Under the pieces are notes generated by a model. The model did not search any database and was not told the origin of the DNA. It saw only the letters and a list, made by a program, of their open reading frames with translations. The translations under genes were made by a program, and so were the position numbers. A stretch of 64,000 nucleotides of DNA from Allobosea sp. (GTDB lineage Bacteria > Pseudomonadota > Alphaproteobacteria > Rhizobiales > Beijerinckiaceae): positions 186,001 through 250,000 of the forward strand of contig NZ_JAUYTP010000031.1 of assembly GCF_030695125.1 (NCBI RefSeq). Direction: 5' to 3'. Shown here piece after piece: positions 729 through 33,723 of the stretch (the first letter of the stretch is position 1; the number at the start of each line of letters is the position of its first letter).

Positions 729-1478
729 ATGACGAAGACGATCCTGATCTCCGGCGCCACCGCCGGCTTCGGCGCCGCCACCGCGCGGCGTTTTGTACAG
801 GCGGGCTGGCGGGTCGTCGGCACCGGTCGACGCGCGGACCGGCTCGCCGCGCTGCAGGCGGAACTGGGCGACGCGTTCTGCCCCGCCGCCTTCGACATTA
901 CCGACGAGGCGGCGATGCAAGCCGCGCTGGCGGCATTGCCCGAGCCGTTCCGCGCGATCGACGTGCTGGTCAACAATGCCGGCCTGGCGCTCGGCGTGAA
1001 GCCCGTGCCCCAGGCTTCGCTCTCCGACTGGCGCACGATGATCGCGACCAACATCACCGGCCTCACCACGCTGACGCATCACCTGCTGCCGGGGCTGATC
1101 GAGCGCCGGGGCGCGATCGTCAACATCGCCTCCGTCGCGGCGAACTGGCCCTATTCCGGCGGCAACGTCTATGGCGGCACCAAAGCCTTCGTGCAGCAAT
1201 TCTCGCTGGGGCTGCGCTCTGACCTGCATGGCAAGGGCGTGCGCGTCACCTCGATCGAACCCGGCCTGTGCGAGAGCGAATTCACGCTGGTGCGCAATGG
1301 CGGCGACCAGGCCGCCTATGACGCGCTCTACAAGGGCGCCAACGCCTTGCAGCCGCACGACATCGCCGAGACGATCCTGTGGGTCGCGACGCTGCCGCCG
1401 CATGTCAACATCAACAGCCTCGAGATCATGCCGGTGAGCCAGTCCTTCGGCGGCTTCCAGGTTCATCGCGAGGGCTGA
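729..1478 (+). CDS. SDR family NAD(P)-dependent oxidoreductase (YdfG-like)
   Basis: 249 aa classical short-chain dehydrogenase. The cofactor motif GATAGFG is at the N terminus, NNAGLALG follows, and the catalytic Tyr and Lys are in YGGTK near residues 148–152, with Ser in NIASVA upstream. The family shape resembles YdfG, an NADP-dependent 3-hydroxy acid or serine dehydrogenase, but the substrate cannot be read from sequence. ATG at 729 was chosen because the Rossmann fold begins immediately and GAGGA lies just upstream; the longer frame to 642 adds 29 residues without family character. It follows a TRAP permease gene, so it may act on the imported compound. Confidence 0.85.
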   Translation: MTKTILISGATAGFGAATARRFVQAGWRVVGTGRRADRLAALQAELGDAFCPAAFDITDEAAMQAALAALPEPFRAIDVLVNNAGLALGVKPVPQASLSDWRTMIATNITGLTTLTHHLLPGLIERRGAIVNIASVAANWPYSGGNVYGGTKAFVQQFSLGLRSDLHGKGVRVTSIEPGLCESEFTLVRNGGDQAAYDALYKGANALQPHDIAETILWVATLPPHVNINSLEIMPVSQSFGGFQVHREG

Positions 1479-1750
1479 GCCCCGGCCTGGGACCTGCCCT
1501 TGCCGGCGCCGGGTTCGTCGGACCGGCCCCTTGCGGCGCCTGTCCGCTCGGCGGCGACGTGGTGGGGAGCCGAGAGCGGCTCCCTGCCCTGTCCGTAGCT
1601 CGCTCGCACCGTCTCGTAACGGCAGGCCGGACACGATTCCGCATGGTGTCTCTTCGCAGGCGAACGCACAGCCTTGCGCTCCCGCGAACGATCCGACGGG
1701 CGGCTTCCAGGTTTCTGCATGATTGAGAAAAACTGACGTGGCCACCGAAG

Positions 1751-11138: not shown

Positions 11139-11240
11139 CGTCATTCTCGGGCGCAGCGCAGCGAAGACCCGAGAATCTCCGGCAGGATGAGCATCAGCGC
11201 GGCGTGTCACGAGATGCTCGGGTCAAGCCCGAGCATGACG
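11139..11240. repeat. Dispersed palindromic intergenic repeat, copy 1
   Basis: Begins CGTCATTCTCGGG and ends GAGCATGACG. It has two palindromic halves: CTCGGG/CCCGAG with an AGCGCAGCGAAG spacer, then GCTCGGGTC/GCCCGAGC. A 20-base insertion separates the halves here. The same element recurs at 20076, 24513, 25999 and 33646. Confidence 0.8.
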
Positions 11241-16242: not shown

Positions 16243-17580
16243 TCAGTTCTTGCGCACCACGGGGCGGACCGGGATCGCCTCCGCCGGGTTGTCCCAGCGA
16301 TAGGTCAGGCCGGCCGAGACGATGTTGATGTAGGGCTTGGCTTCGGCCGTGAAGATGACCGGACCCTGCTGCGGATGGGCACCGCCATAGTTCACCGACG
16401 CCTTGGTGACGTGGATAAAGGTGTAGCCGACATCGAGCTTCAGCTTGTCCGTGACCTGGTAGCTCGCACCGGCCGAGAGCCAGAGCCGGTCGTTGTCGGA
16501 GACGAAGACGGTGCGGTTGGTGTCGTTGACCGCCGAAAGCTCGTAGGCGACGCCGGCGCGCAGCGTCAGAGCCTGGTTGTACTTGTATTCGACGCCGCCG
16601 CTGAAATACCAGCTATCGTCATAGACGAAGTTGAGGCTCGAGATCGGCAGGCCGCTGATCTGGCTGACGATCGGGATGCGGCGGAAGCGGCTCCAGTTGG
16701 TCCATTCGACGCCGAGATGGGCCTGCCACTGGTCGTTGATGACCTGCGAGACGCCGAACACCACGGAATCGGGCAGGTTCAGATTCGCCTTGATCGGCGA
16801 CACGCCGGCCACGGTCGAGATCGTGCCCTCCAGGGTCTGCCGGATCGAGGAGCGATAGGCGAGACCGATGGTCGTGCCCTGCAGCGGGGTCAGCGTCGCG
16901 CCGACACGGAAGCCGTAATCGATCGTATCGCCCTTGAGGACCTGGTTGGGGGCGGCCGGGCCGATGGCGGTCGCGAGCGCCGCGCCGGTGGCGTTCTTCA
17001 GGCTGGTGTTCAGATACTGGACCTGGAAGGCGGCGCCGACCGAGAGCCAGTCATTGACCTTGTAGCCGATCGTCGGGGAGACGTTGATCGTGCGCAGGGT
17101 CGCGGACCGGCCATAGACCTGCCCCGCATAGACCTGATTCTCGGGCTTGGAGCGCAGGCCGAAGGGCGCGCCCGTGGTCAGGCCGACCCAGAACCGGTCG
17201 GTGAGCTGCCAGGCGGAATAGGAAGCCGGGATGAAGGCGCCGTCGCCGCCGATGTTGCCGCTGCCGTTCTGGATCGGGCTGAGCGGACCGACCGGGGAGC
17301 CCAGGCGCGTCGCCCCGGTAGGCTCATAGGAGGCGTTGGCGTTGAGATAGGTGAAGTTCCACTGGCTGTTGCGGCCGGGGAACATGGTGATCGTGGCCGG
17401 GTTCCAGGCCATGGCGCCCATGCCGATGCCGCCCGAGGCCGCACCCGCATAGGCCATGCCGAGGCCCTCGGCGCTCTGGCCGCTGCGGATCGCGAAGGAG
17501 CTGGCCTGGGCCGCGCCGGCGGCGAGGAGCGCCGCGACCGAAACCGTGGCCACTGCGGCCGTGCGAACGATGCCCATCAT
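16243..17580 (-). CDS. OmpP1/FadL family outer-membrane transporter
   Basis: 445 aa with a signal peptide cleaved after AQA. The mature start SSFAIRSGQSAEGLGMAYAG and NPATITMFPGR match the FadL N-terminal hatch, followed by alternating beta-strand patterns of a 14-strand barrel and an aromatic C terminus. These porins pass long-chain fatty acids or aromatic hydrocarbons across the outer membrane. The start is the first ATG of a tandem pair at 17580; the open frame to 17664 would put charged residues before the signal. It is divergent from the FAH-family gene. Confidence 0.9.
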   Translation of the reverse strand: MMGIVRTAAVATVSVAALLAAGAAQASSFAIRSGQSAEGLGMAYAGAASGGIGMGAMAWNPATITMFPGRNSQWNFTYLNANASYEPTGATRLGSPVGPLSPIQNGSGNIGGDGAFIPASYSAWQLTDRFWVGLTTGAPFGLRSKPENQVYAGQVYGRSATLRTINVSPTIGYKVNDWLSVGAAFQVQYLNTSLKNATGAALATAIGPAAPNQVLKGDTIDYGFRVGATLTPLQGTTIGLAYRSSIRQTLEGTISTVAGVSPIKANLNLPDSVVFGVSQVINDQWQAHLGVEWTNWSRFRRIPIVSQISGLPISSLNFVYDDSWYFSGGVEYKYNQALTLRAGVAYELSAVNDTNRTVFVSDNDRLWLSAGASYQVTDKLKLDVGYTFIHVTKASVNYGGAHPQQGPVIFTAEAKPYINIVSAGLTYRWDNPAEAIPVRPVVRKN

Positions 17581-18009
17581 GGAAGTCCATCCCGTCTGTC
17601 GTTTCTTCGGGACTGATCCGTCCCGCTCGATGACGAACATGACCCGAGCCGTTTCTGGCCGCAATCCCGCCTTGAAGTTCGTTTGTGAGGCTGTGTGCGA
17701 AGCTATTCCGCTAGGGAAACCGCAAAAACAGGCGAAACGGCCGCGTTTTCTTCCCTTGCCGGCTTCATGCCAGGCCGATCACATCGTTTACATACGAACT
17801 ATTGCGGGTTTTCAGGATTTTGGATCAAACCGCGGCACCCTCGCCCAATCGGAAGGCAGGAAGCTTTCACCGACGCCGTTGCATTCACGCAACATTGCCC
17901 GGAGCCGCGACATGCACCCGCGCCATGCGTCGGAACGGGCTTGTCATCGGCGGCTGCATCTTGTCAGGTTCGCCACCCAATTAGATCGTTTGAAAACGGG
18001 GGAAACGAC
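17581..18009. other. 429-base divergent spacer between fadL and the FAH-family gene
   Basis: No convincing ORF, RNA or repeat was found. It should contain both divergent promoters, but I could not identify a pair of hexamers with good spacing. An A+T-richer patch at about 17784–17830 (GTTTACATACGAAC) is the most promoter-like or operator-like part. Confidence 0.4.
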
Positions 18010-18858
18010 GTGAAACTGTTACGCTATGGCGCTCTTGGCCAGGAAAAGCCCGGCCTGCTCGATTCCAAGGGCGTCCTGCGGGACCTCTCGGGCAGCCTTC
18101 CCGACCTCGCCGGCAAGGCGCTGACCTCGGCCTCGCTGGCCAAAATTCGAGCAATCGACCCCGAATCATTGCCGGCGGTTTCCGGCGCGCCGCGCATCGG
18201 CGCCTGCGTCGGCGACGTCCGCAACTTCATCGCGGTCGGCCTCAACTTCGCGGACCACGCGGCCGAGACCGGCGCCGAAATCCCCAAGGAGCCGATTCTC
18301 TTCAACAAGGCGCCGAACTGCATCGTCGGTCCGAATGACGACGTGATCATTCCCAAGGGCTCGAAGAAGACCGACTGGGAGGTCGAACTCGCCATCGTCA
18401 TCGGCGACGGCGGCTCCTACATCCCCGAAGACAAGGCGATGGCCGCCATCGCGGGCTTCGCCGTCTGCAACGACGTCTCGGAGCGCGAATACCAGATCGA
18501 GCGCGGCGGCCAGTGGGCCAAGGGCAAGGGCTGCCCGACCTTCGGCCCGCTCGGCCCCTGGCTGGTGACGACCGACGAGGTCGCGGACGTCCAGAATCTC
18601 GGCATGTGGCTCGAGGTCGATGGCGAGCGCGTCCAGAACGGCTCGAGCAAGACGATGATCTTCGGCTGCGCCTATCTCGTCCACTACATCAGCCAGTTCA
18701 TGCGGCTGGATCCGGGCGACGTCATCACCACCGGCACGCCGCCCGGCGTCGGCCTCGGCTTCAAGCCGCCGCGCTTCCTGAAGGGCGGCGAGGTCGTCAA
18801 GCTCGGCATCGAGGGCCTGGGCGAGCAGCAGCAGCACTTCAAGGCCTATCAGGGCTGA
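18010..18858 (+). CDS. Fumarylacetoacetate hydrolase (FAH) family protein
   Basis: 282 aa from a GTG at 18010 with GGGGGA upstream; the frame extends back to 17695 without conserved content. The FAH-fold signature is complete: FNKAPNCIVGPNDDV, then DWEVELAIVIG, whose acidic residues bind the divalent metal, FAVCNDVSEREYQ, and GDVITTGTPPGVG. Members include acylpyruvate hydrolases, ureidoglycolate lyase and homoprotocatechuate-pathway isomerases; the exact substrate is not decidable. It ends in a strong terminator. Confidence 0.88.
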   Translation: MKLLRYGALGQEKPGLLDSKGVLRDLSGSLPDLAGKALTSASLAKIRAIDPESLPAVSGAPRIGACVGDVRNFIAVGLNFADHAAETGAEIPKEPILFNKAPNCIVGPNDDVIIPKGSKKTDWEVELAIVIGDGGSYIPEDKAMAAIAGFAVCNDVSEREYQIERGGQWAKGKGCPTFGPLGPWLVTTDEVADVQNLGMWLEVDGERVQNGSSKTMIFGCAYLVHYISQFMRLDPGDVITTGTPPGVGLGFKPPRFLKGGEVVKLGIEGLGEQQQHFKAYQG

Positions 18859-18879
18859 GATCGCTCCTCGCCGACATGG

Positions 18880-18907
18880 AAAAGGGCCGCTCGCGCGGCC
18901 CTTTTTT
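18880..18907 (+). terminator. Intrinsic terminator of the FAH-family gene
   Basis: AAAAGGGCCGC and GCGGCCCTTTT form an 11-base stem with a TCGC loop running into six T. It lies between converging genes. Confidence 0.9.
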
Positions 18908-18933
18908 GTGCCTCCGTCAAAGCGAGTGCCGGA

Positions 18934-19869
18934 TCACTTCTCGGGCAGGCCGAGCATCAGCCGGATGTTCTGCACCGCGGCGCCCGAGGCGCCCTTGCCG
19001 AGATTGTCGAGCCGCGCCACCAGCACCGCCTGGCGCAAATCGTCGTCGCCGAAGACCCGCAGTTCGAGCCGGTTGGTATCGTTGAGCGCTTCGGGCTCCA
19101 GCTTGCCGCCCGCCTGCACGGCCGGAACGACCGAGACATAGGTCGAGCCGGCGTAATGCTCGGCCATCGCGTCGGCGAGATCGGCCGCCTTGGGCTTGCC
19201 CGGCAGCGTGTCGAGATGCAGCGGCACCGAGACCAGCATGCCCTGCCGGAAATTCCCGACCGAGGGAATGAAGATCGGCCGGCGAGTCAGCCGGGCATAT
19301 TGCTGCAGCTCGGGCAGATGCTTGTGCTTGAGGCCGAGCCCATAGAGCTCGAAAGCCGGCGCCGTGCCGGCCTCATAGGCCTCGATCATGCTCTTGCCGC
19401 CGCCGGAATAGCCGGAAACCGCATTGATGGTGACGGCGTGATCGGGCGGGATGAAGCCGGCATCGACCAGCGGCCGCAGCAGCGCGATGCCGCCCGTGGG
19501 ATAGCAGCCCGGGTTGGAAACGCGGGTGGCCTTCGCGATCGTCGCGGCATGGCCGTGCTCGAGTTCGGCGAAGCCGTAGACCCAGTCCGGGGCGACGCGA
19601 TAGGCGGTCGACGCATCGACGATCTTGGGCGAGGCGTCGCCGAGTTCGTCAGCCAGTGCGACCGATTCCTTGGCGGCGTCGTCGGGCAGGCAGAGCACCA
19701 CGAGATCGACCTGCGCCATCATCTCCCGGCGCGCGGCAGGGTCCTTGCGCTTCTCGGGGTCGATGCTCCTGACGACGACGCCCGGCATAGCCGCCAGCCG
19801 GTCGCGGATGCCGAGCCCGGTCGTGCCGGCTTCGCCGTCGATGAAGATGGATTTCGGGTTCTGGCTCAT
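18934..19869 (-). CDS. argC: N-acetyl-gamma-glutamyl-phosphate reductase ArgC (type 2)
   Basis: 311 aa, the short type 2 form of ArgC. It has the cofactor-binding [14 protein letters not shown] and the catalytic Cys122 in [10 protein letters not shown]. It reduces N-acetylglutamyl phosphate in arginine synthesis. ATG 19869 (MSQNPK) has an excellent GGAGGT; the seven upstream codons of the open frame overlap it. The leader carries a promoter, an arginine-rich short ORF and an intrinsic terminator, so arginine-dependent attenuation is likely. Proximity to rplM–rpsI and agmatinase is usual in rhizobia. Confidence 0.95.
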
Positions 19870-19919
19870 CGGGACCTCCGAGACCGGCATGGACGAAATG
19901 CTTGGTCGGCTTCAGGCAC

Positions 19920-19943
19920 AAAAAAACCGCGCTTCGGGCGCGG
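19920..19943 (-). terminator. Terminator in the argC leader (candidate attenuator)
   Basis: On the minus strand CCGCGC and GCGCGG pair around a five-base loop and run into seven T. The hairpin ends 50 bases before the argC start, and no promoter-like pair is seen in those 50 bases, so transcripts for argC probably cross it. An upstream hairpin (CGCTCGG with CCGAACG, one mismatch) and the GCGCG runs in the leader could compete with it. Confidence 0.75.
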
Positions 19944-19972
19944 TCGCGGGCGTTCGGACATCAAGCCGAGCG

Positions 19973-20032
19973 TCATCGCGGTCGCGCAGGGGCGGCCGAG
20001 ACAGAGCGACGTCGGGCGTGGTTCACGGTCAT
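19973..20032 (-). CDS. Putative arginine leader peptide of argC
   Basis: A 19-codon ORF reading MTVNHARRRSVSAAPARPR followed by TGA. Five of 19 codons are Arg, three of them consecutive. It ends 29 bases before the 5' arm of the terminator hairpin. Its ATG coincides with the start predicted from the promoter at 20039–20067, so the RNA would be leaderless, as described for the trpL attenuator of Sinorhizobium. A five-base GTCGC/GCGAC pairing spans the ORF. Translation is not proven; position and codon content are the argument. Confidence 0.55.
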   Translation of the reverse strand: MTVNHARRRSVSAAPARPR

Positions 20033-20038
20033 GAGCGG

Positions 20039-20067
20039 GATATGAGCGAGGGAGGGGGCGCTGTCAA
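20039..20067 (-). promoter_or_regulatory. Putative sigma-70 promoter of the argC leader
   Basis: A perfect TTGACA is followed after exactly 17 bases by CATATC on the minus strand. Initiation six or seven bases further on would be at or next to the A of the leader ATG at 20032. The promoter begins nine bases after a dispersed repeat. Confidence 0.65.
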
Positions 20068-20075
20068 TTGCACGC

Positions 20076-20152
20076 CGTCATTCTCGGGCGGCGCGAAGCG
20101 GCGACCCGGGAATCTCCGGATCGACATGCTCGGGTCGAGCCCGAGCCTGACG
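20076..20152. repeat. Dispersed palindromic intergenic repeat, copy 2
   Basis: Begins CGTCATTCTCGGGCGG and ends GAGCCTGACG, with the two palindromic halves of the family. It sits between argC and agmatinase, just upstream of the argC leader promoter. Confidence 0.8.
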
Positions 20153-20226
20153 GGCGTTACGGTCAAGGATTTGAACCGCTTGCACCGGGAGGCTGCCAAA
20201 CCGATTCCAGTCCCTCACACCCTGAT

Positions 20227-21183
20227 TCACCCCGCCTTCTTCAGCGCCAGCGCCTGGATGTAATGCTGGACCAGCGCCGATCCGGCGATCGCGGTGGCGT
20301 CGGCGTGGTCGTAGGGCGGCGAGACCTCGACCACGTCCATGCCGCGAAAGTCGAGGTCGCGCAGGCCCCAGACCATGCGCAGCGCCTGATCCGAGGTGAA
20401 GCCGCCGGCGACCGGCGTGCCCGTGCCCGGCGCGAAGGCGGGATCGAGTGCGTCGATGTCGAAGGTCAGATAGGCCGGCCCGGTGCCCACGCGCTCCCTG
20501 ATGCGGGCGATGGTGCCGGCGACGCCGAGTTCATGCGCGACATAGGCGTCGAGGACGTCGATCCCGCAATCGCGCGGGGCGACCGTGCGCAGGCCGATCT
20601 GGATCGAGCGATCCGTGTCGATCAGCCCCTCGCGCACCGCCTCCAGCACGAAGGAGCCATGGCTGACCGCGCCGACACCGTCATCCCAGGTGTCCTGATG
20701 CGCGTCGAACTGGACCAGTGCCAGTCTGCCATGGCGGGCGACATGGGCGCGTAACAGCGGCAAGGTGATGAAATGGTCGCCGCCCAGCGTGACGAGATGC
20801 GCGCCCGCGGCGATGATGCCCGCCGCCTCCCGCTCGATCGCCCGCGCACAGCCCTGCAGATCGCCGCGCGGCAGCAGGCAGTCGCCGTAATCGACGGCGG
20901 CGAGATGGGCGAAGGGGTCGATCCGCGCGGGGTATTGCGCGTCGCCATCGAAGATCGCGCTGGCGCGGCGCAGGGCCTGCGGCCCGAAGCGCGTGCCCGG
21001 GCGGTTCGAGACGGCGAGATCGAAGGGCACGCCCCAGATCACCAGATCGCAGCCGGAGACGTCCTTGGAATAGCGCCGCCGCATGAAGGAGAGCGCGCCG
21101 GCATAGGTCGGGTCCGCCGCGCCGCCGCGGCGATCGCCGGTGAAGGCGTGGTCGATCGGGGGCGTCTCGGCGGGTGCGCTCAT
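20227..21183 (-). CDS. speB: Agmatinase / ureohydrolase
   Basis: 318 aa ureohydrolase. The manganese-binding motifs are complete: GGDHFITLPLL, DAHQDTWDD and TFDIDALDPAFAPGTGTPV. This is the agmatinase branch, which makes putrescine and urea from agmatine; guanidinobutyrase and similar enzymes share the motifs, so the substrate is likely but not certain. ATG 21183 (MSAPAE) is preferred to the open frame at 21237. It is followed on the same strand by the argC leader region. Confidence 0.88.
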   Translation of the reverse strand: MSAPAETPPIDHAFTGDRRGGAADPTYAGALSFMRRRYSKDVSGCDLVIWGVPFDLAVSNRPGTRFGPQALRRASAIFDGDAQYPARIDPFAHLAAVDYGDCLLPRGDLQGCARAIEREAAGIIAAGAHLVTLGGDHFITLPLLRAHVARHGRLALVQFDAHQDTWDDGVGAVSHGSFVLEAVREGLIDTDRSIQIGLRTVAPRDCGIDVLDAYVAHELGVAGTIARIRERVGTGPAYLTFDIDALDPAFAPGTGTPVAGGFTSDQALRMVWGLRDLDFRGMDVVEVSPPYDHADATAIAGSALVQHYIQALALKKAG

Positions 21184-21200
21184 GGGGATGATCCGTGACG

Positions 21201-21482
21201 TCAGGGCTTGCGGCCGACGAGCCAGACATAAAGGCACCAGGGCAGGATCAGGGCGAGCCCCGACAGCACCAGCCGCAGCACCGTCCAGGCGACCGGGTTC
21301 TGCAGGGCGCGGCCGTCCAGTTCCGGCACGCCATGGATCAGGCCGAGCGCGAAGGCCGGCGCGAGGAAGATCACCAGCGCATTGCCGATGCGGCGGCCGC
21401 GCGGCAAATCGCGCCGCGCCAGCGCGATCAGGGCGGGCACGGCGATCATGCCGAAGGCGATGAGGATCAGGAGAACGCGCAT
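21201..21482 (-). CDS. Small hypothetical membrane protein
   Basis: 93 aa with three hydrophobic segments (VLLILIAFGMIAVPAL, GNALVIFLAPAFALGLI, LVLSGLALILPWCLYVWLV) and basic loops. No family is recognised. It ends 17 bases before the agmatinase ATG and follows the DUF4239 gene by 31 bases, so the three may form one transcript. The start at 21482 was chosen where hydrophobic content begins. Confidence 0.6.
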   Translation of the reverse strand: MRVLLILIAFGMIAVPALIALARRDLPRGRRIGNALVIFLAPAFALGLIHGVPELDGRALQNPVAWTVLRLVLSGLALILPWCLYVWLVGRKP

Positions 21483-21513
21483 GGGTCGGAGTCCGGGACG
21501 GTGAATGAGCCCC

Positions 21514-22338
21514 TCATGGCCTGGCCTGAGGTGGGCGCGACATGAGCTGGGCCCGCAGATCGAGAGTGGCGATGCTGCGCTCGATCGGAGAGGGATCGGC
21601 ACTCTGGTCACCGAGAAAGGGCCTGTCCATGACGAACAGAAGCCCGATCAGGAGACCGATCGCGCCGGAGTAGCCGGCCAGCGGCAGGATCACCACCCAT
21701 CGCGGCACAATCATCGCCGCCTCCGCCGTCATCAGCAGCAAAAGCAGGATCACGGCGAGCCAGAAGGTGTCTGGCAGACCGCCGGCCGCCGAAGCCTCGA
21801 TCTGCGATTGAGTATCGCCGATGGATTCGACGCCGGCCGAGATCAGTTCGAGCGTACTCCCGTCTCCCTTGATGGTTTGAGCCAGAACATCGACGTGCCC
21901 CGACAAAGCGCCCAGAGCCGTCGCCACATCGGGGCTCGGCCTCTGAGCGCGCATCGCCGGCCATCCGCGATCGACCAGGATGCGGGCATAATCACGCACT
22001 GCCCGGCGGGCATCGGCGGCCTCGGCGGAGTCGATGCGGCCCAGCGCACGGTCGAGCTGCAGCAGGTTCATCGCCTGGCTCTCGACCAGTCGGCGCGCAT
22101 CATGAAGGCGATTGACCGATTGCAGCAGCAGGAAGGCAGTGAAGATGCCGGTGAGCGGGCCGATCAGCTTGAACGCATCGAGCGCGGCCGCAGACCGCTC
22201 CAGGTTCGGCTTCAGCCGAAACATGCGATGCGCGACCCAGGGCGCGGCCACGCAGATCCCGAGCGCCAGCGTCACCGCCAGGCTGATCAGCACGGTGGAG
22301 TGTATCTGATAGAGCCACGCGGCCATCGCTTCGTTCAT
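21514..22338 (-). CDS. DUF4239 (bestrophin-like) membrane protein
   Basis: 274 aa. Two N-terminal helices, a soluble helical middle region with LDAFKLIGPLTGIFTAFLLLQSVNRLHDAR, and two C-terminal helices (FWLAVILLLLLMTAEAAMIV and VVILPLAGYSGAIGLLIGLLFVMDRPF) match the DUF4239 pattern, distantly related to bestrophin anion channels. The function is unknown. AGGGAC lies just before ATG 22338. It lies upstream of the small membrane protein on the same strand. Confidence 0.75.
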   Translation of the reverse strand: MNEAMAAWLYQIHSTVLISLAVTLALGICVAAPWVAHRMFRLKPNLERSAAALDAFKLIGPLTGIFTAFLLLQSVNRLHDARRLVESQAMNLLQLDRALGRIDSAEAADARRAVRDYARILVDRGWPAMRAQRPSPDVATALGALSGHVDVLAQTIKGDGSTLELISAGVESIGDTQSQIEASAAGGLPDTFWLAVILLLLLMTAEAAMIVPRWVVILPLAGYSGAIGLLIGLLFVMDRPFLGDQSADPSPIERSIATLDLRAQLMSRPPQARP

Positions 22339-22447
22339 GTCCCTGCTGCTAGGCTGCGGGGCGGAGCTATACCCGCCGCGCGCCTAAGGGCAAACCGACG
22401 CGTCGCCGCCTGCGGCCATCGCGGCGATCGCGGCATTGCGGCAAAGG

Positions 22448-23206
22448 CTACCGCCCGCCGCCGACGCGCAGGATCGAGCCGACGACATAGGACGCGGCGT
22501 CCGACAGGGCGAAGAGCACGACCTCCGCGACCTCCTCGGGCTGGGCGGCGCGCTTGATGGGAATCGTCGGCGCGATGCGGGCGACGCGGCCGGGCTCGCC
22601 CGAGGACAAAGCGTGGATCTCGGTCTCGGTCATGCCCGGCGCCACCGCGTTGACCCGGATGCCGGCCGGCGCCAGCTCTCTGGCCATGCCGAGCGTGAGG
22701 GAATCGATCGCGCCCTTCGAGGCCGCATACCAGACGAACTCGTCGGGCGAGCCGAGCCCGGCCGCGATCGAGGAGATGTTGACGATCGCCCTGCCCTTCG
22801 CCTGCGGATTGGCCATCAGCGCGCGCGTCGCCTCGCGCGCGACCAGGATCGCGCCGGTGACGTTGACGTCGATGCAGGTGCGGATGGTCTGCGGGTCGGC
22901 CTCGGCCAGCTTGCTCGCCGGGCCGGTGATGCCGGCATTGTTGACGACATGGGTCAGCGGCCCGAGCGCCGCTTTGGCTTCCGCGAAGACGCGGGCGATG
23001 TCGTCCTGCACGGCCATGTCGCCCTGCAGCGCGACCGCTTTCGCCCCAGCGGCCTCGCAGGCCGCCACGACCTCGGCGGCAGCCTTCGCCGCGCTCTGGT
23101 AGTTCACCGCGACGTCATAGCCGCGCTGTGCGGCCATCACGCAGATGGCGGCGCCGATGCCCCGGCTGCCGCCGGTGACGAGGAGGACGGGGCGGGCGGC
23201 GGTCAT
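22448..23206 (-). CDS. SDR family oxidoreductase (FabG-like)
   Basis: 252 aa classical SDR. TGGSRGIG, NNAGITG, the Ser of VNISSIA and the YAASK catalytic motif are all present, and the C terminus SYVVGSILRVGGGR is typical of 3-oxoacyl-ACP reductase-like enzymes (usually VDGG at this place). The substrate is unknown. GAGGAG precedes ATG 23206. It stands alone between a palindromic repeat and DUF4239. Confidence 0.87.
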   Translation of the reverse strand: MTAARPVLLVTGGSRGIGAAICVMAAQRGYDVAVNYQSAAKAAAEVVAACEAAGAKAVALQGDMAVQDDIARVFAEAKAALGPLTHVVNNAGITGPASKLAEADPQTIRTCIDVNVTGAILVAREATRALMANPQAKGRAIVNISSIAAGLGSPDEFVWYAASKGAIDSLTLGMARELAPAGIRVNAVAPGMTETEIHALSSGEPGRVARIAPTIPIKRAAQPEEVAEVVLFALSDAASYVVGSILRVGGGR

Positions 23207-23234
23207 GGTGTCTCTCCTCGAGCGGTGCCGAACC

Positions 23235-23315
23235 CGTCATTGCGAGCGCAGCGAAGCAATCCAGACAAAGGCCGAGCGCACGATCCTGGATCGCTTCGCT
23301 GCGCTCGCGATGACG
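23235..23315. repeat. Palindromic intergenic repeat, type B
   Basis: Arms starting CGTCATTGCGAGCGCAGCG at 23235 are repeated inverted (CGCTGCGCTCGCGATGACG) at 23297–23315, around a core that contains CCAG/CTGG. This sequence type is abundant between genes in Bradyrhizobium and relatives. It shares CGTCAT/ATGACG ends with the other repeats here. Confidence 0.85.
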
Positions 23316-23332
23316 AAGGGACAGAGAATACG

Positions 23333-23362
23333 AAAAGGGCGGCCCTTGCGAGCCGCCCTTTC
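23333..23362 (-). terminator. Intrinsic terminator of rplM-rpsI
   Basis: On the minus strand AAAGGGCGGC and GCCGCCCTTT pair around an eight-base loop and continue into TTTTCG, 25 bases after the rpsI stop. Confidence 0.8.
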
Positions 23363-23387
23363 CACATACCGGGTGATCGGAAAACGA

Positions 23388-23867
23388 TCAGCGCTTCGAG
23401 AACTGGAAGCTGCGGCGGGCCTTGGCCTTGCCGAACTTCTTGCGCTCGACGACGCGCGAATCGCGGGTCAGGAAGCCTTCCTTCTTGAGCGGGCCGCGAA
23501 GCTCGGGCTCGTAGAAGGTCAGGGCCTTGGAAATGCCGTGACGCACCGCACCGGCCTGGCCGGAGAGACCGCCGCCCTTGACCGTGACGACGACGTCGTA
23601 CTGGGTCAGGCGATCGACGAGCTGCAGCGGCTGCTGGAGGACCATGCGCAGCACGGGGCGCGCGAAGTACACCACCTGGTCACGGGTGTTGACCGTGATC
23701 TTGCCGGTGCCGGGCTTGATCCAGACGCGGGCGATGGCGTTCTTGCGCTTGCCGGTGGCATAGGCGCGGCCCTGCGCATCGACCTTCTTGACGTGGACGG
23801 GGGCGTCGGGCTGGGTCGACTTCGCGACTTGGCCGAGCTGCTCGAGAGACTGAAGAACCTCGGCCAT
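23388..23867 (-). CDS. rpsI: 30S ribosomal protein S9
   Basis: 159 aa. The S9 core is clear: [47 protein letters not shown], and the basic tail ending QFSKR that reaches the ribosomal P site. The N-terminal extension of about 30 residues is normal in alphaproteobacteria. It starts two bases after the rplM stop, so the two are one operon with translational coupling. The open frame upstream to 24290 is only an overlap with rplM. Confidence 0.98.
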
Positions 23868-23869
23868 GG

Positions 23870-24331
23870 TCAGACCCTCGCATTCTTGCTGTTGAGCGCG
23901 GCGACGTCGAGCGCCTCCGGCATTTGGGCTGCGTGGGGATGCTCGGCGCCCTTGTAGACGCGCAAATTGCCGAGGATCTGGCGGAACAGCGGGCCGCGGG
24001 GCAGCATGCGCTCGACAGCCTTCTCGACGATCCGCTCCGGGAAGCGGCCTTCGAGAATGAACTTGGCCGAACGCTCCTTGATGCCGCCGGCATAGCCGGT
24101 GTGGTGGTAGTAGACCTTCTGGTCGCGCTTGCGGCCGGTCAGGACGACCTTGTCGGCATTGATGACGATGATGTTGTCGCCGCAGTCGACATGGGGGGTG
24201 TACGCCGGCTTGTGCTTGCCGCGCAGACGCAACGCCACAACCGCGGCGAGACGACCCACGACGAGCCCGGAGGCGTCGATCACAACCCACTTCTTTTCGA
24301 CATCGGCGGGCTTGAGCGAGATGGTCTTCAT
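23870..24331 (-). CDS. rplM: 50S ribosomal protein L13
   Basis: 153 aa, beginning [20 protein letters not shown] and containing the L13 signature region [32 protein letters not shown]. Usual length. ATG 24331 has GAAGGG about ten bases upstream. First gene of the rplM–rpsI operon. The leader is unusual: a TTGACA promoter at 24398–24426 is followed directly by a GC-rich hairpin and U-tract at 24355–24386. Confidence 0.98.
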
Positions 24332-24354
24332 CGCGGGCACCCTTCGGAGCGTTG

Positions 24355-24386
24355 AAAAAAGGACAAGCCGCCGGAGGACCGGCGGC
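24355..24386 (-). promoter_or_regulatory. Terminator-like hairpin in the rplM leader
   Basis: GCCGCCGG and CCGGCGGC form a perfect eight-base stem with a TCCT loop; six bases later six T follow. The element lies between the predicted transcription start (about 24391) and the rplM ATG at 24331. It could be an attenuator, a binding site for autogenous control, or a stabilising 5' hairpin. Confidence 0.6.
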
Positions 24387-24397
24387 GGTGTGAGCGG

Positions 24398-24426
24398 GGG
24401 ATAGGGGCAGGCCGCGCCGGTGTCAA
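24398..24426 (-). promoter_or_regulatory. Putative promoter of rplM-rpsI
   Basis: TTGACA and TATCCC separated by 17 bases on the minus strand; the start would be near 24391, about 60 bases before the rplM ATG. Confidence 0.65.
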
Positions 24427-24512
24427 GCACTACCCGATGCTCACGATCCCGAAAAACGCATTGTTTTCAGCGGAATGCCGAAAACGGTACCCAGATACCG
24501 CGCTGCCCCATT

Positions 24513-24578
24513 CGTCATGCTCGGGCTCGACCCGAGCATCTCAGGCCAGAGATTCTCGGGTCGAGCCCGAGAATGACG
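24513..24578. repeat. Dispersed palindromic intergenic repeat, copy 3 (short form)
   Basis: CGTCATGCTCGGGCTCGACCC starts the first palindrome; the second is CTCGGGTCGAGCCCGAG, ending AATGACG. Two perfect hairpins stand side by side. It lies between the thioesterase end and the rplM promoter. Confidence 0.8.
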
Positions 24579-24589
24579 ACGCGTCCGCC

Positions 24590-25063
24590 TCAGCGCTCCG
24601 CGGGAATCGAATAGGTCCCCGTCGCATGGGCGACCATCTCGCTTTCGCCTTGCGAGTAGAGCGAGACCTCGCCCACCGCCAGTCGCTTGCCGAGCTTGAG
24701 CAGCCTCGCCTCCCCGATCAGTGCGGCGGGACCCGGCTTGCGCAGGAAGTTGAAGGACAGGCTCGTGGTGACGGCGAGCGCGACGGGGCCGATCTGGCCG
24801 AGGATCGCCGCATAAAGCGCGAGATCTGCGAGTGCCATCATGGTCGGGCCGGAGATCGTGCCGCCGGGGCGCAGATGCTTCTCGTGGTAGTCGCAGCGCA
24901 TGCGGGCGCTCATGGCGCCGACCTCCTCGACGAAATAGGTGCGCCCGCCGATATGGAGCTGCGGGAAGACCTCGTCGAGGAAGGCCTCGATCTGCGCGGC
25001 GTTCATCCGGGGCGTGGTGTCGCGCAGGGTCTTGTCGCGCAAGGTCTTGTCACGGAAGGTCAT
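24590..25063 (-). CDS. PaaI-family hotdog thioesterase
   Basis: 157 aa from ATG 25063, or 138 aa from ATG 25006. The hotdog-fold core includes LRPGGTISGPTMMALADLALYAAI and TTSLSFNFLRKPGPAALIGEA, typical of PaaI/acyl-CoA thioesterases. It hydrolyses acyl-CoA; the substrate is unknown. The extra N terminus is a 15-base tandem repeat coding RDKTL twice, which is unusual and may be non-coding; neither start has a strong ribosome binding site. It is divergent from an enoyl-CoA hydratase, so the two may share a pathway of acyl-CoA metabolism. Confidence 0.85.
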   Translation of the reverse strand: MTFRDKTLRDKTLRDTTPRMNAAQIEAFLDEVFPQLHIGGRTYFVEEVGAMSARMRCDYHEKHLRPGGTISGPTMMALADLALYAAILGQIGPVALAVTTSLSFNFLRKPGPAALIGEARLLKLGKRLAVGEVSLYSQGESEMVAHATGTYSIPAER

Positions 25064-25998: not shown

Positions 25999-26075
25999 CG
26001 TCATTCTCGGGCGGAGCGAAGCGCAGACCCGAGAATCTCCGGCCGGAGATGCTCGGGTCGAGCCCGAGCATGACG
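25999..26075. repeat. Dispersed palindromic intergenic repeat, copy 4
   Basis: A clean copy of the family, starting CGTCATTCTCGGGCGGAGCG and ending GAGCATGACG, with the two palindromes joined by CCGGCCGG. It lies between two co-directional genes. Confidence 0.85.
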
Positions 26076-33645: not shown

Positions 33646-33723
33646 CGTCATTTTAGGGCGGAGCGCAGCAGAGACCCGAGAATCCCTTGCCGGAGATGCT
33701 CGGGTCGAGCCCCGAGGATGACG
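33646..33723. repeat. Dispersed palindromic intergenic repeat, copy 5
   Basis: Begins CGTCATTTTAGGGCGGAGCG and ends GAGGATGACG. One base of the first palindrome differs (TTTTAGGG against CCCGAGAAT), so this copy is decaying. It lies between converging genes. Confidence 0.75.

Follow-up and report, generated by a model that had tools for sequence, protein, structure and literature searches.

A putative leaderless arginine attenuator precedes argC and other arginine genes in some Alphaproteobacteria

Analysis of the region upstream of argC in the window, the 64,000-nucleotide stretch of DNA studied here, revealed a compact element made of a promoter, a short arginine-rich open reading frame and an intrinsic terminator. 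We interpret this element, with a probability of roughly 0.85, as a ribosome-mediated transcription attenuator that would sense arginine, mainly through the charging of tRNA-Arg(ACG), and control argC. The interpretation is based on the conservation of the parts, their spacing, the codon bias of the leader, the association with arginine genes and predicted competing pairings in the leader RNA. Elements of this kind very probably switch on arginine-making genes at low arginine in a number of alphaproteobacteria.

Results

Architecture of the element upstream of argC

A first-pass annotation of this DNA had described a promoter, its spacer, an ORF with five Arg codons, a terminator, a GGAGGT sequence and the argC start codon, and re-reading confirmed each of these to the base. 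All parts lie on the minus strand. Direct reading gives a −35 box, TTGACA (20067-20062), followed after a 17-nt spacer by a −10 box, CATATC (20044-20039). The ATG of the putatively leaderless leader ORF (20032-19973; 19 codons plus stop, encoding MTVNHARRRSVSAAPARPR) is located at 20032, 6 nt past the −10 box, which is the expected start of transcription. Five of the 19 codons specify Arg, at positions 7-9, 17 and 19. Codons 7-9, CGA CGT CGC (20006..20014), form the putative stall site and could in addition serve as region 1 of a 1:2 protector hairpin, and the terminal Arg codon CGA with the stop TGA (19973..19978) lies inside the antiterminator/protector arm. The predicted antiterminator hairpin (19938..19987) is formed by the ORF end, GCGCGACCGCGATGACGCTCGG, and by CCGAACGCCCGCGACCGCGC, a stretch that contains the 5' arm of the terminator. 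The intrinsic terminator itself, GACCGCGC-CCGAA-GCGCGGTT (19920..19945), consists of a stem at 19945-19925 and seven T at 19926-19920.

Downstream of the terminator, direct reading places the argC Shine-Dalgarno sequence GGAGGT at 19879-19874. The gene (18934..19869) encodes a type 2 N-acetyl-gamma-glutamyl-phosphate reductase (TIGR01851; NCBIfam score 399.6 bits versus a cut-off of 229.85), and its ATG at 19869 is 50 nt beyond the last T of the terminator; a second possible in-frame argC ATG lies at 19890. Directly upstream of the attenuator, on the same strand, is the agmatinase gene speB (20227-21237, minus), so that speB read-through might also meet the argC terminator. The window also contains a dispersed repeat, GCGCCGCCCGAGAATGACG, read on the minus strand, whose reference copy at 20076-20094 ends 8 bases before the attenuator −35 box; with the copies at 25999-26017, 11139-11157 and 33646-33664, which differ from it by one to three mismatches, it occurs four times versus 0.2 expected.

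A consensus promoter scan of 17500-25000 listed no promoter, and missed that of the leader because CATATC lacks the T required at position 6. An Rfam search of the window returned only two tRNAs at the gathering score, and a search of 19600-20400 gave no family match up to E = 1 and no T-box. A model of the element, R1, scored it at 99.5 bits in the window's own genome, in which 31 further sites reached 24 bits at best; reading 18 of these 31 weak sites by eye revealed no such leader among the 18.

Conservation at type 2 argC loci

To place the element among relatives, 80 loci encoding relatives of the window's ArgC were fetched, the closest named ones (Bosea) having up to 96% ArgC identity. 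An intact element, comprising promoter, Arg-rich ORF and terminator, was present at 28 of these 80 type 2 argC loci. All 17 Bosea or near-Bosea loci (L004-L020) had a leader with an Arg pair or run together with a GC-rich terminator, and such a leader with its terminator was found at 11 of the 63 other argC loci. Outside Bosea, the element occurred in Chelatococcus albus, Alsobacter metallidurans, a Hyphomicrobium and several uncultured Hyphomicrobiales; at the remaining type 2 argC loci among the 80, apart from one decayed copy (L030), neither a script nor models R1 and R2 found anything convincing. Apart from some loci, L099 and L031 among them, the sequences have CGACG in common where the Arg codons lie, CGATGA around the stop and CCGCGC/GCGCGG within the terminator; −10-like boxes, often of the CAT type, were found in relatives at the same place. 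The decayed copy at L030 (2826-2925) has lost its stop codon, with CTATGG instead of the stop-region CGATGA, and has a broken T-run (GGGTTGTTG); the switch before argC seems to have been lost naturally at this locus.

Recurrence before different arginine genes

In genome-wide searches, a place was called real or false by reading its promoter, ORF and terminator by eye. Across 397 genomes of the order, R1 reported matches in 180 at E ≤ 0.01; when 30 R1 loci were fetched and read, 21 were real and 9 false, and the R1 tally was discarded and a covariance model, R2, built instead because R1 E-values were too generous. R2 gave 33 places at E ≤ 1e-4 in the 397 genomes, including 22 real ones (in 21 genomes), 7 false ones (G305, G064, G035, G351, G131, G253 and G211) and 4 left unread (G235, G108, G312 and G030). 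With one genome added by hand (G052), the element is present in 22 of the 397 genomes of the order. Searching 385 genomes of the class with R2 gave seven matching genomes, five of them real (the window's, G407, G488, G490 and G517), while G035 and G625 were rejected as false on reading. Among 299 genomes of the phylum, R2 produced four matches, none of which was real except the window's own.

The genes downstream of the element differ. Twelve of the real R2 places account for every sampled genome of a single family and genus (f20/g26; 12 of 12); there the element precedes a non-orthologous, type 1 argC, and all 12 downstream proteins pass the TIGR01850 cut-off. Two genomes, G274 and G407, have the element before argD; G274 has two elements, one before argD and one before argC, and in G407 the argD frame is interrupted by a stop after codon 226. 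In G488, G490 and G517 the element precedes argC. In G224 (L090, element at 1445-1551, minus strand) it lies before a RidA-family gene (PF01042) followed by an ACT_7-domain gene; the downstream gene here is not a classical arg gene, and the RidA- and ACT-domain genes suggest an arginine-linked operon.

Distribution of the element is patchy. When the regions upstream of 60 further argC2 genes, 59 of which belong to genomes that had no real R2 match, were scanned for a T-run of at least four with a short ORF nearby, two regions carried the element (G052 and the second copy of G274). The scan also flagged an ORF encoding MPAIWRRRG in L203 (G082) and the end of rpsI in L205/L206, both of which were dismissed by eye. 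On sequence grounds, the element is tied to the arginine pathway and not to a gene neighbourhood, and the strongest evidence that it serves arginine control is its recurrence before different arg genes without a shared neighbourhood. A lack of Arg-run conservation among relatives would, by the first-pass annotation, have refuted its proposal; the leader, the promoter spacing and the terminator proved to be conserved outside Bosea, and also where the downstream gene is argD or an argC that is not orthologous.

The same conservation bears on a different explanation, in which the terminator serves upstream speB transcripts, the ORF is a chance Arg-rich frame and the argC promoter is located elsewhere. 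It is true that GC-rich DNA yields many Arg-rich short ORFs, that speB lies upstream on the same strand, and that terminator-like sites are common, with 10 found in the scanned stretch versus 3.7 in shuffles, so that the terminator alone is weak evidence. Nevertheless, the promoter, the ATG spacing, the Arg run, the terminal CGATGA and the terminator have been kept as a set in different families and in front of different genes; this conservation of the whole arrangement in relatives rules out a chance arrangement and leaves the speB explanation extremely unlikely.

A search for ArgR of the E. coli type (PF01316) found none in the 19 genomes searched among the 26 that bear the element, and none in a class-wide sample of 76 genomes, 56 of which have a completeness of at least 90% and a contamination of no more than 5%; the search was positive in 9 of 14 control genomes.

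Promoter spacing suggests a leaderless ORF

The distance between promoter and leader ATG is nearly constant. TTGAC starts 35-39 nt upstream of the leader ATG in each of the 52 intact elements that were measured, and in the 43 elements that make up the statistics set the distances of 35, 36, 37, 38 and 39 nt occur 18, 13, 8, 3 and 1 times, respectively. The nine elements checked for spacing separately from this set, all intact, are the near-identical Bosea L005, L011, L012, L014 and L016-L019, plus L046; also outside it are the decayed L030 and the repeat places of other loci (L084-L086, L144 and L149). The expected frequency of TTGAC in a given five-base range of the fetched loci is about 0.3%. 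Of the 52 leaders, 11 have another in-frame ATG 3-6 nt after the first. Because TTGAC lies 35-39 nt upstream, the ATG stands at the expected start of transcription with no room for a Shine-Dalgarno sequence, and the leader ORF is thus probably leaderless, as had been proposed for the window's copy before relatives were compared.

Arg codons and the tRNA that reads them

Arg accounts for 233 of the 795 codons in the 43 leaders, with four to eight Arg per leader and RRR in 35 of them. The choice among synonymous codons is skewed: CGA provides 95 of the 233 leader Arg codons versus 3 of 352 in 20 argC genes plus speB (Fisher p = 3e-40), a p-value that is too small because the leaders are related to each other, and for the same relatedness significance values for these elements overstate independence. 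Conversely, CGG, AGA and AGG together make up 19 of 233 Arg codons in leaders versus 156 of 352 in argC/speB. The codon background covers 20 of the 43 loci, and eight f20 argC genes were added to it. By group, CGA accounts for 25 of 50 leader Arg codons in Bosea, 24 of 53 in f20 (versus 0 of 125 in the eight f20 argC genes) and 46 of 130 in the rest, and at least one CGA occurs in the leader of each of the 20 lineage representatives.

ARAGORN, which returned a tRNA for 42 of 43 tRNA-family matches in the window's genome (none for the stretch L261), identified tRNA-Arg genes with the anticodons ACG, CCG, CCT and TCT, one gene each. Under the usual wobble rules, the ACG (inosine) tRNA decodes CGT, CGC and, most slowly, CGA; the leader would therefore seem to monitor mainly this one tRNA, tRNA-Arg(ACG).

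The end of the ORF raises the question of a sensor of another kind. The codon before the stop is Arg in all 43 leaders (CGA in 39), and the stop is TGA in 42 of 43. The fungal arginine attenuator peptide and SpeFL arrest the ribosome at the stop codon with ligand bound, and free arginine or ornithine together with the leader peptide could likewise arrest it here, preventing the antiterminator. This extreme conservation of Arg-stop would fit such a nascent-peptide sensor, and folding indicates that arrest of the ribosome there would tip the balance to the terminator. Several observations speak against it: leader peptides of different families have little in common beyond Arg, the distance from the Arg run to the stop varies from 24 to 42 nt among leaders, and the bias toward CGA, CGT and CGC among synonymous codons points to sensing of codon and tRNA. 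The terminal CGATGA may also be explained by pairing. We therefore regard the peptide sensor as quite unlikely and favour attenuation governed by tRNA-Arg charging.

Predicted competing pairings in the leader RNA

Folding of the RNA left free by a ribosome on the Arg run predicted a hairpin that joins the ORF end and flanking bases to the stretch preceding the terminator and to some or all of the terminator 5' arm. Compared with 300 shuffles of the spacer alone, this antiterminator had a mean z of −1.48 (Stouffer −6.6) in the 20 lineage representatives, of which 17 were below zero, 8 reached p < 0.05 and 12 fell short of it; over all 43 elements the mean z was −1.21; 37 elements were below zero and 13 reached p < 0.05. 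The antiterminator of the window, taken alone, did not beat its shuffles (z −1.16, p 0.13). Among 18 close relatives (Bosea), the antiterminator pairs are kept in 95.4% of cells. Of the points that the first-pass annotation had asked to see in relatives, Arg codons and terminator are conserved, but the antiterminator pairs show no covariation within Bosea, where the sequences are too alike. Between families, the sequence of the inner stem differs yet, by eye, stays paired (L042, L145, L146 and L093). Together, folding and shuffle controls support a competing antiterminator across lineages, in agreement with the alternative pairing first suggested for the window. The 1:2 protector hairpin, which would cause termination in the absence of translation, is weakly suggested in several elements and is statistically weak, with a mean z of −0.50 and a Stouffer value of −2.2 in the 20 representatives.

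In three Hyphomicrobium-like leaders (L042, L037 and L031), the Arg run has a residue other than Arg in third place (RRM/RRL), and further Arg follow (ARPLAR.R); the predicted antiterminator of these three is especially long and stable.

Position of the ribosome is predicted to shift the balance toward or away from the terminator. For the window, the predicted probability of the terminator is 0.94 when the ribosome sits at the stop, 0.34 and 0.50 when it is on the first and third Arg, respectively, and 0.62 without a ribosome, a state for which values across 38 elements range from 0.00 to 1.00. With the ribosome at the stop, the terminator reaches at least 0.5 in 37 of the 38 elements, the exception being L037 at 0.24, and it falls below 0.5 in at least one of the two stalled states in 25 of 38. 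The remaining 13 stay above 0.5 in both stalled states, for which reason we dropped the idea of a switch visible at equilibrium in every element. Given these 13, the value for L037 and that for the window without a ribosome, the switch would depend on co-transcriptional timing.

Discussion

We propose the following sequence of events for the window's element. Transcription would start at the leader ATG, where the promoter spacing suggests that a ribosome initiates on the leaderless end. With ample Arg-tRNA, the ribosome would reach the stop at 19975-19973, cover the ORF end and hide the antiterminator arm; the terminator (19945-19920) could then form, and an RNA of about 113 nt would be released. 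When arginine is short, the ribosome would stall at CGA-CGT-CGC, codons 7-9, leaving the ORF end free to pair, as folding predicts, with the 5' arm of the terminator and allowing read-through into argC.

The released products could have further roles. If the terminated leader RNA, the Arg-rich peptide or both also act in trans, cis control of argC would be only part of the function. The architecture does resemble that of the leaderless trpL attenuator, whose products act in trans (PMC7298713); the non-Arg part of the peptide, in contrast, is not conserved between families, and we consider this view very unlikely relative to attenuation in cis. More tentatively, and with less than even odds in our estimation, the observations may be joined into a wider picture, in which alphaproteobacteria lacking ArgR control arginine synthesis through a leaderless attenuator, either mobile or retained repeatedly, whose rare CGA codons read the charging of one tRNA, tRNA-Arg(ICG). 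Its regulon would be small (argC of either type, argD and one RidA/ACT-domain operon), and the RNA of about 113 nt, with the peptide, may have trans effects on further arg genes, comparable to that of rnTrpL on trpDC.

Arginine seems to be missing from the list of amino acids whose synthesis is under translated-leader control, and the element makes arginine sensing directly testable in a class in which E. coli-type ArgR was not detected in the genomes sampled. If the proposed reading is true, leaderless attenuators are not confined to trp. The element also offers a natural test of codon-specific sensing, since CGA is read by inosine, and model R2 can be used to annotate it in other genomes.

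Comparison with known systems

Attenuators of amino acid operons (trpL, hisL, leuL, ilvL, thrL and pheL) combine tandem codons for the product with mutually exclusive antiterminator and terminator before a biosynthetic gene. The element described here is like them in its tandem codons for the pathway product, its predicted antiterminator opposing a terminator, and its place before a biosynthetic gene. Unlike them, it appears arginine-specific and is probably leaderless, its Arg codons are mostly CGA, CGT and CGC, those of one tRNA, and the predicted antiterminator arm overlaps the leader stop codon.

The leaderless trpLE(G) leader of Sinorhizobium meliloti (rnTrpL/peTrpL) has a 5' end that coincides with the ATG (PMC7298713, PMC10117765). 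The arginine element shares a leader ATG at the 5' end, here a predicted one, whereas the S. meliloti leader has tryptophan codons, a 14-aa peptide and trpE downstream. In the Salmonella speF leader, orf34 senses arginine through consecutive Arg codons, and an Arg codon adjoins its stop (PMC6386406). This resembles the Arg-codon run and the Arg next to the stop in our leaders; orf34 differs in serving a polyamine gene, in acting through Rho, RBS access and RNase G decay with no intrinsic terminator, and in being Shine-Dalgarno-led within a long leader. The SpeFL/orf34 core HIRRT...HIMM given in that source (PMC6386406) was not encountered in our leaders, which have mainly Arg in common and precede argC or argD. 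Leader-peptide Arg codons also sense arginine scarcity in rbfL of Staphylococcus aureus (PMC13009471). Our element likewise has Arg codons in a leader peptide as its proposed sensor; in contrast to it, rbfL governs translation of rbf, a gene outside arginine biosynthesis, via RBS occlusion, has AGA/AGG codons and is Shine-Dalgarno-led.

Pseudomonas aeruginosa carA, a gene common to arginine and pyrimidine synthesis, has a leader peptide and possible attenuation (cited in PMC4997734). By that description, attenuation is attributed to pyrimidines and arginine acts at the transcriptional level, unlike the control proposed here. T-boxes bind tRNA directly to the RNA without a leader ORF. Arginine T-boxes control arginine operons of other species at the RNA level (PMC1262725); the element would share this level of arginine control and, as noted, matches no Rfam family. 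In the accessible text of the same 2005 survey of actinobacteria, attenuators are given for histidine, threonine and phenylalanine in other species, and for arginine only T-boxes (PMC1262725).

In the open-access literature covered (titles, starts of abstracts and passages), with subscription papers including the survey of Vitreschak et al. 2004 outside its scope, we recognised no attenuator of argC or argD and no alphaproteobacterial arginine attenuator. Likewise, the available portions of studies on Sinorhizobium and Caulobacter small ORFs, premature terminators and alphaproteobacterial RNA motifs mention no arginine leader. The first-pass annotation had suggested a new attenuator class; arginine specificity does look new, as do the leaderless design and the recurrence at several arg genes, but the mechanism is of the classical type, and the class, ribosome-mediated attenuation, is known. 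In sum, the element is better described as a new amino acid specificity of a known class than as a new class.
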